From assembly GCF_030695525.1 (NCBI RefSeq), contig NZ_JAUYSS010000029.1, positions 1 through 64,000 of the forward strand: a DNA stretch of 64,000 bases, written 5' to 3'. Source of the DNA: Daejeonella sp. (GTDB lineage: Bacteria > Bacteroidota > Bacteroidia > Sphingobacteriales > Sphingobacteriaceae). Both the position numbers and the translations under genes were made by a program. The notes under the pieces are model-generated. The model worked only from the letters and a program-made list of their open reading frames with translations. It made no database searches and was not told the DNA's origin. Shown piece by piece: positions 22,011 to 22,707 of the stretch (its first letter is position 1; every line of letters begins with the position of its first letter).

Positions 22011-22399
22011 TATATACATAAAATCTGTTTTAACAATATTGAAATACAACTCAACTAAAACTAAGGAAATATTTATATTTTTTGAATAATTTGTTTTGAG
22101 TACTTTCCCCTGTGGCTGGTACTATTAGTGATAAGGTAAATATCTTGCGTATAGGCTGGGATTAATTTCATTGATCCCTTTAGGGGGGAACCGTCAAGTC
22201 AAATGCTGCCGCTGCGCTTGTCGGCATTTTTATTTTCCGACCATTCAAGCGAGCTTGATGCTCTCCAAATATAAAATGCCGCTCCACCAAAGGTGTAACA
22301 GCATTTGACTTGCGGAGAGTGTGGGATTAATTTCATTGATCCCTTTAAGGGGGTACCGTCAAGTCAAATGCTGCCGCTGCGCTTGTCGGCATTTTTATT

Positions 22400-22429
22400 C
22401 CCTGTGGTCGGTGTTATCACCGCCCACTT
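22400..22429. repeat. 30-bp palindromic repeat, copy B
   Basis: Reverse complement of the repeat at 4393-4422 with one mismatch; core GTGGTCGGTG-TTAT-CACCGCCCAC. It sits inside the array next to tRNA-Ser. Confidence 0.7.
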
Positions 22430-22579
22430 AAGCGGGCATTAAATTTAGCTTAACATGTGGGATTAATTTCATTGATCCCTTTAGGGGGGAACCAGCAAAG
22501 AAATGCTGTCGCTTCGTTTCACTCCGCTTTGTCATTTTTTGTTCCATGCTTATACGAGCTATGCTCGTAACGCCTGAAA

Positions 22580-22613
22580 CAAAAAATGCCATCCGCCTAA
22601 GGGCGGACAGCAT
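22580..22613 (-). terminator. Intrinsic terminator of tRNA-Ser
   Basis: On the minus strand ATGCTGTCCGCC-CTTA-GGCGGATGGCAT forms a 12-bp stem (two G-U pairs) followed by TTTTTTG. It starts 8 bases after the tRNA 3' end. Confidence 0.85.
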
Positions 22614-22620
22614 TTCATTG

Positions 22621-22707
22621 CGGAGAGGGTGGGATTCGAACCCACGGTACCATTGCTAGTACACGAACTTTCCAAGCTCGCTCGTTCGGCCACTCTGACA
22701 CCTCTCC
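22621..22707 (-). tRNA. tRNA-Ser (anticodon GGA)
   Basis: An 87-base cloverleaf on the minus strand. The acceptor stem is GGAGAGG / CCTCTCC with discriminator G; the anticodon stem CGAGC / GTTCG encloses the loop TTGGAAA, giving anticodon GGA for UCC and UCU. A long variable arm, as in class II tRNAs, and a T arm GTGGG-TTCGAAT-CCCAC are present. CCA is not encoded. A strong terminator follows at 22580-22613. Confidence 0.96.

Follow-up and report, generated by a model that had tools for sequence, protein, structure and literature searches.

Behind the tRNA-Ser(GGA) gene of the 64-kb window, the whole stretch of DNA analysed here, related blocks of sequence follow one another, and this raises the question of whether they are remnants of the tRNA gene or elements in their own right. 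The original prediction described them as decayed duplicates of the tRNA 3' end and its terminator, with related blocks of about 31 bases, and proposed either that a small element had inserted repeatedly and left an att-like array or that the locus is a source of tRNA-fragment-terminator RNAs. Its local readings are accurate in that GGGATTAATTTCATTGATCCC occurs exactly at 22158, 22323 and 22459 (chance expectation 0.01 matches, as a mean at up to 3 mismatches), the blocks are spaced by 165 and 136, and TTGCGGAGAGTGTGGGATT (22310-22328) differs from 22618-22636 at a single base. However, the repeat size of about 31 bases is wrong, since the array consists of three tandem units of ~165 bp (22157-22621; Table 1) and the 31-base block, rather than being a T-arm in decay, forms a hairpin that is conserved. 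Nor are the copies mere decayed duplicates, since they are structured, with a pseudo-T-arm that is conserved and a fold that covaries. On balance, and with moderate confidence, we interpret the array as a mobile cassette present in three copies, which is non-coding and non-autonomous and has the T-loop/3' end of tRNA genes as its insertion site. The observations on which this interpretation draws are the structure of the units, their position, direct repeats, covariation, tandem arrays and presence or absence at given tRNA genes.

Three tandem units at the 3' end of tRNA-Ser(GGA)

Table 1. Features of the array and its anchor gene, in positions of the window.
Feature	Positions	Strand	Evidence
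tRNA-Ser(GGA), anchor gene of the array	22620-22707	-	ARAGORN; Rfam RF00005, 46.7 bits, 22621-22707
Proximal unit, complete, flush with the tRNA 3' end	22458-22621	+ (opposite to tRNA)	R1, 153.7 bits; fold
Pseudo-T-arm hairpin of the proximal unit, GGGATTA..TGATCCC	22459-22479	+	exact repeat
Proximal left terminator-like hairpin and T-run, pointing at the tRNA gene	22501-22540	+	sequence; putative function
Right hairpin and T-run, presumably the intrinsic terminator of tRNA-Ser	22582-22615	-	pattern AAATGCTGTCCGCC..GGCATTTTT
Long-range stem closing the three-way junction	22495-22510 with 22606-22621		arms 94% complementary over 16 bases; fold; covariation in relatives
Middle unit, without right half	22322-22452	+	R1, 56.6 bits; alignment
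REP-like palindromic repeat inside the middle unit	22396-22429		37 of the 41 genome BLAST matches of the region
Distal unit, complete, of a sequence subfamily other than the proximal one	22157-22312	+	R1, 137.6 bits
tRNA 3'-end copy (T-loop to discriminator), 1/17 changed, at the distal/middle junction	22312-22328	+	
tRNA 3'-end copy, 3/17 changed, at the outer edge of the array	22147-22163	+	
Decayed middle/proximal junction, 6/17 changed	22448-22464	+	equal-level matches occur elsewhere in the window

The R1 scores of the proximal and distal units in Table 1 come from a model for which these two units are themselves training sequences. Between 22050 and 22797 the list of open reading frames contains none of 100 aa or more, and a unit of ~165 bp carries no integrase gene. 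The distal and middle copies have 91 bases in common at 93% identity, and the middle one has lost its right half and contains a different repeat. For the 17-base tRNA 3' end, the best non-tRNA match in the 64 kb is the one at 22312, with 1 mismatch, followed by 22147 and one unrelated minus-strand site with 3 mismatches each; because an unrelated site also reaches 3/17, the copies at 22147 and 22448 convince by their position and not by their score.

The REP-like palindrome CCCTGTGGTCGGTGTTATCACCG... of the middle unit recurs through the genome with another 37 BLAST matches, including one in the window at 4393-4424. It is a family separate from the units, and similar copies occur near a unit in relatives (L037, L142).

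A fold that encloses two convergent predicted terminators

An intact unit comprises, in this order, the pseudo-T-arm GGGATTAATTTCATTGATCCC, a G-rich stretch, a left arm with a terminator-like hairpin, an apical hairpin and a right arm that holds the presumed terminator of the tRNA. In addition, the left arm pairs with the right one, generating a three-way junction that contains two convergent predicted terminators, in which a hairpin followed by a T-run has the layout of an intrinsic terminator. In the proximal unit the left hairpin reads GTCATTTTTT and is hence missed by the core pattern used for genome searches, which matches its counterparts at 22201 and 22366 on the plus strand. Complete units fold better than shuffled sequences on both strands (z of -6.33 and -6.27 on the minus strand, and of -7.24 and -4.48 on the plus strand), and five part-unit stretches do not exceed their shuffles (z from -1.79 to +0.12).

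The fold covaries among units. In 11 of them, 94.5% of the cells are paired, against 83.5% in shuffles, and 57 cells have changed on both sides with pairing retained, against 20.7 in shuffles; when the fold partners are slid along the alignment, at most 47.7% are paired. One of the five covariation measures, the count of further pair types, is no higher than in shuffles (25 versus 26.2). Moreover, the right end pairs with its own left part over at least 9 of 10 bases in 79 of the 100 units, compared with a mean of 4.7% and a maximum of 8.2% when partners are swapped between genomes. The outer stem, for which covariation is seen in relatives, encloses both terminators. Since a transcript should end at these terminators before the stem can form, we infer that the stem matters as DNA, either as a single strand or as a cruciform, rather than as RNA; alternatively, it could be kept by template-switch correction of inverted repeats.

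Units at tRNA ends throughout the class

The expectation that the same unit would be found at other tRNA genes is borne out, both in this genome, where units occur at Ser-GCT, Ser-TGA and Pro-TGG besides Ser-GGA, and at tRNA ends class-wide. The core pattern AAATGCTG..GGCATTTTT gives 7 matches in the 4.2 Mb genome, on both strands and all at its three tRNA-Ser loci, of which GCT and TGA lie on contig 6; its reversed control gives 0 matches in the genome. R1, a covariance model built from 11 units, adds two units, one of them partial, at tRNA-Pro(TGG) on contig 26, and matches 12 of the 20 genomes of the genus and 72 of the 301 genomes of the family (11 of 25 genera). R2, which was built on 28 Ser and Pro units and is broader, matches at E <= 1e-4 in at least 141 of 395 genomes and at least 86 of 196 genera of the class, a lower bound with 7 candidates scored per genome, among which related genomes, and several loci in one genome, are not independent. 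R2 has only 13 base pairs, the outer stems having aligned poorly, and is therefore mainly a sequence model. The array thus belongs to a class-wide family and is not local debris.

Simpler searches are less discriminating. In relatives the core pattern is unspecific, being found in 27 of 100 genomes: eight of the 15 loci checked have a tRNA-Ser in the stretch and two more have a tRNA-Ser end (L142, L144), and the other five may be chance matches or plain terminators. The pseudo-T-arm pattern alone is loose, with a called tRNA at only 4 of the 17 loci checked; R2 (E <= 0.01) matches only these 4 and L244, which has no called tRNA, yet there the unit is followed by a tRNA-Ser-like end. Units at random intergenic sites unconnected with tRNA genes, which would speak against the original prediction, were not clearly seen. 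Weak R2 matches in the own genome amount to 10 loci (E from 7e-4 to 0.72), none flush with a tRNA; at L360 a tRNA-Gln lies nearby in the wrong orientation, and the best of them, L357 (29.3 bits), has no called tRNA and is followed ~50 bases on by GGAGCCGGAGGGATT, which looks like a tRNA end.

The class loci comprised 40 stretches chosen among the R2 matches listed and 29 new loci, 69 in all, of which R2 was run on 67; L312 and L350, which overlap L291 and L309, were omitted. At 59 of the 67 loci a tRNA or tmRNA gene on the opposite strand has its 3' end where the unit ends, to within -8 to +6 bases. The hosts of these flush units span 11 amino-acid classes plus tmRNA, namely Ser (30), Pro (10), Arg (4), Cys (3), His, Val, Met and Leu (2 each), and Gln, Glu, Lys and tmRNA (1 each). 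Because models R1 and R2 extend no further into the tRNA 3' end than its last few bases, this position is a nearly independent check.

The other eight loci, on reading the sequences, appear to have displaced, truncated or uncalled tRNA 3' ends. In two of them an extra stretch of ~130 bases, bounded by tRNA-end-like sequence, separates the unit from tRNA-Ser; in three, a tRNA-Ser-like 3' end terminates the unit and is followed by unrelated DNA; in one, the contig stops inside a tRNA-Ser-like 3' end; and in two, the end reads as tRNA-Met-like or as that of another tRNA, both uncalled by ARAGORN. At L332 (G442) the unit lies beside an apparent tRNA-Met with a short inverted-repeat insertion, likewise uncalled by ARAGORN. 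Contig 12 of G049 (L225, L226/L277) carries two tRNA-Ser(TGA) genes ~43 kb apart in opposite orientation, and at both of them the nearest element is a different cassette-like stretch bounded by tRNA-end copies, with a standard unit behind it.

A hairpin that follows the T-stem of its host

The pseudo-T-arm varies with the tRNA gene beside which it stands. Its outer arm equals the T-stem of the host at 169 of 177 positions and its inner arm complements that T-stem at 164 of 177, against means of 134.2 and 130.6 and maxima of 146 and 144, respectively, in 10,000 host shuffles. The inner arm had been picked as the best partner of its own outer arm before the host comparison, and the host shuffles keep that pick. 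The arm pairs read GGGAT/ATCCC at Ser, AGGAT/ATCCT at Pro, CAGAT/ATCTG at Pro with another stem, CGGAT/ATCCG at Cys, TGGAT/ATCCA at Gln, GTGAT/ATCAC at Met and GAGAT/ATCTC at tmRNA. At the 24 loci whose stem is other than GGGAT, the outer arm is identical to it in 19 and the inner arm is complementary in 20. At the tRNA-Ser(GGA) of G442 (L331) the hairpin seems, by eye, to be ~15 bp long, the arm of the element complementing most of the tRNA 3'-end copy.

Insertion or residence

If a cassette inserted at a tRNA gene, each insertion would leave the old tRNA 3' end, from T-loop to discriminator (~17 bp), at the outer edge, and the tRNA 3' end would stay whole through the identical sequence carried by the inner edge of the cassette. 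The 17 bases before a unit are identical to the 3' end of its own host tRNA at 15 or more positions in 39 of the 137 distinct units (24 of the 99 proximal and 15 of the 38 distal ones). The distribution of identities is bimodal, the other units scattering mostly around 7-11 of 17. In those other 98 units the acceptor copy is unrecognisable and the pseudo-T-arm hairpin is mostly recognisable, which suggests constraint in place.

This persistence of hairpin and fold despite the decay of the acceptor copy also suits another explanation, in which the units are resident, vertically inherited elements of tRNA genes, composed of a bidirectional terminator and a regulatory or protective hairpin, that undergo tandem duplication and occasional ordinary recombination between tRNA genes and have no dedicated mobility. 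Vertical inheritance with local duplication is a serious rival to insertion, though we regard it as somewhat unlikely. In its favour, units are often orthologous at the same tRNA of related species, those at the TGA locus being 96% identical between G000 and G009, and some arrays repeat truncated units: at L305, L317, L342 and L204 a truncated unit (pseudo-T-arm and left half) is repeated several times, perhaps by slippage, with one complete unit adjoining the tRNA. Moreover, in front of many junction copies stands a terminator that resembles the one in the following unit. For twelve proximal units with a good copy, no other unit was detected leftwards, and in eight of these, as judged by eye, a terminator-like hairpin precedes the copy (in L336 it is identical to that of the unit itself). 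Such hairpins may be terminators that were displaced or what is left of an earlier unit, so that tandem duplication is a possible source of the copies, and our confidence in insertion is slightly reduced because most single good-copy units follow them. However, in four proximal units (L157, L187, L197 and L286) the tRNA-end copy, good to exact, has neither a unit nor a terminator before it.

The comparison of single loci among related genomes argues further against residence, congeners differing in the presence of a unit at the same tRNA. Inspection by eye of the tRNA-Ser(GGA) locus in 16 congeners revealed a unit adjoining the gene in six, displaced in one (G019) and none within the 260 bases or fewer viewed in nine; at tRNA-Ser(GCT), likewise by eye, a unit is present in three of 11. 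At the latter locus G000 has the unit and G009 does not, though the flank is syntenic (86.6% over 1,041 bases); the flanks align only from 273 and 459 bases out, so that no exact empty site can be defined. Different subfamilies also occur at the same tRNA within one genus: tRNA-Ser(GCT) is identical across four aligned genomes, of which G000 and G011 carry one subfamily and G002 another. The GCT unit of G002 is 88% identical to the GCT unit of another genus, and the 120-base flank is not clearly alignable.

A further case is G341, which has four copies at TGA and, at GGA, two complete copies and a truncated one. The units at the two genes are 94% identical, and despite these near-identical bodies the junction copies match each local tRNA end. 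G341 thus counts on either side, since it speaks for transfer from one tRNA gene to another and equally for local making or correction of the junction copies.

Insertion is thus favoured because of the class-wide position at tRNA ends, the direct repeats in 39 of 137 units and the congeners that differ at the same tRNA. The comparative data therefore favour the att-like array of the original prediction, formed by repeated insertion of a small element whose integration we infer, and not its account of the copies as mere decayed duplicates. Counting against insertion, no mover, circular form or larger autonomous relative came to light.

Genomic islands and small RNAs as alternatives

Ordinary genomic islands could leave tRNA-end fragments by integration or imperfect loss, together with island terminators, and other DNA has indeed entered at such sites. 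An example is G019, where tRNA-Ser(GGA) and the unit (L234) are ~7.8 kb apart, with a tyrosine integrase (Pfam) between them, and in G034 ~6 kb separates the two (L232). The stretch at ~9061-15083 of L232, between tRNA-Ser(GGA) and the displaced unit, encodes, to judge from its translations, an apparent CBASS-type anti-phage operon. Since other DNA can enter between tRNA and unit in this way, solo units arise, several of which run into a tRNA end and then into unrelated DNA. Nevertheless, a single covarying architecture of ~165 bp, repeated in many families at tmRNA and 11 amino-acid classes of tRNA, is not what unrelated islands should leave behind, and the left and right parts of a unit pair together, as independent island ends would not, which makes island footprints a very improbable explanation.

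Marginally less probable still is the other suggestion of the original prediction, a source of small RNAs, which would be either tRNA-trailer fragments or an RNA from the plus strand that runs from the pseudo-T-arm through the G-rich stretch to the left terminator: the U-G step of the pseudo-T-arm, invariant in 11/11 units, pairs on the plus strand only and is followed by a terminator-like hairpin, but no Rfam family matches at its gathering score, the outer stem, which spans both terminators, would be missing from such RNAs, and the pseudo-T-arm alone folds no better than shuffles (z of -0.80 at GGA, and of -0.97 and -1.44 at the other two tRNA-Ser genes). In the Rfam search (4227 families), only tRNA/tmRNA and, elsewhere in the window, Flavo-1 reached the gathering score; below the threshold there are five other matches, the best of which (36.9 bits of 68) lies inside the tRNA itself.

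Proposed mechanism and its significance

For the mobile cassette, the preferred interpretation, a recombinase acting in trans would insert the cassette at the T-loop. The T loop is one known crossover subsite of tRNA-targeting integrases (PMC4383910). The pseudo-T-arm, whose inner arm complements the host T-stem, would be the element-borne half of the recombination site. On insertion the tRNA would acquire the right hairpin of the cassette as its terminator, and the second, opposite terminator would shield the tRNA against antisense transcription. Repeated insertion together with local duplication would then stack units beside the gene, the outer ones decaying.

The loop of the pseudo-T-arm varies widely in length among units, unlike the fixed spacer of a recombinase. 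This is a point against a core of that kind and in favour of a folded strand being what is recognised. A more speculative and rather unlikely extension is that the gene-less cassettes move as folded single strands and that the landing site is recognised by pairing of the inner arm with the T-stem of the target, in which case one enzyme acting in trans could serve many tRNA targets class-wide. Such a pairing-guided single-strand mechanism, if true, would be a new category of integrative element. The 3' ends of tRNA genes are a classic target of mobile DNA. If the units move, Bacteroidia harbour a large and so far overlooked population of tiny non-coding elements. These would give essential tRNA genes new 3' ends and terminators in exchange, and their natural pairs of cassette and target could lead to a new recombinase or pairing rule. 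As resident elements they would instead constitute a widespread tRNA-linked structure.

Relation to known elements and candidate movers

MITEs are short, non-coding elements with an inverted-repeat structure and several copies per genome. The units resemble them in being short and non-coding, with inverted repeats and multiple copies per genome, and differ in having a fixed target, the tRNA 3' end, and tRNA-derived flanking repeats. Integron cassettes stand in tandem at one anchor and carry an attC hairpin with a loop of variable length. The likeness of the units to them is one of layout only, that is, tandem copies at one anchor and a variable-loop hairpin, since the units contain no reading frame and their anchor is a tRNA end.

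Closer parallels are found in tRNA-targeting islands and prophages with tyrosine integrases, which, according to a survey of such islands (PMC4383910), occupy the 3' end of tRNA or tmRNA genes with a tRNA 3' fragment at their far end, leave the tRNA gene whole and can form tandem arrays. The units have a far-end tRNA copy as islands do, identical at 15 or more of 17 positions in 39 of the 137 distinct units and at 16/17 at 22312. Unlike islands, they are gene-less, measure ~150-185 bp rather than kilobases, and have a conserved fold and a covarying T-arm mimic. The Islander procedure of that survey rejects candidates below 2 kb or without an integrase gene (PMC4383910), and because of these size and integrase criteria it would not list the units. 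REP/BIME sequences with RAYT (Y1) transposases (PMC3733652) are palindromic and terminator-like, as the units are, but dispersed, unlike the units, which are at tRNA ends (59 of 67 flush, the other 8 at or near apparent tRNA ends). Among the matches listed for the open-licence literature, no title or beginning of an abstract concerns non-coding cassettes at tRNA ends. A study of human microbiomes reports 250 palindromic candidate RNAs, 230 of them terminator-like (PMC8040213).

As regards candidate movers, a Y1 transposase (PF01797) is found in 8 of the 12 unit-bearing and 3 of the 8 unit-free congeners, a distribution that does not suggest strict dependence. A reverse transcriptase was rejected as mover, PF00078 being present in just 3 of 20 congeners. 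A regular expression for tyrosine recombinases gave 0 matches in 20 regions and is too strict, having missed the Pfam integrase of L234.

Two possible origins were likewise rejected. An attP of phage or plasmid origin was discarded because nothing was found in IMG/VR for two patterns or among plasmids and phages for the proximal unit. A REP family was discarded as an explanation of the units because the core pattern occurs in this genome at tRNA-Ser loci only (7/7).

Other features of the window

Among the tRNA calls of ARAGORN in the window, the tRNA-Leu(CAG) at 45498-45595 lies inside the S-adenosylhomocysteine hydrolase gene (44962-46278) and is probably a false positive, Rfam having no match there. 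Beside the same gene, on the minus strand at 46513-46609, lies the Flavo-1 RNA (RF01705, 46.6 bits).
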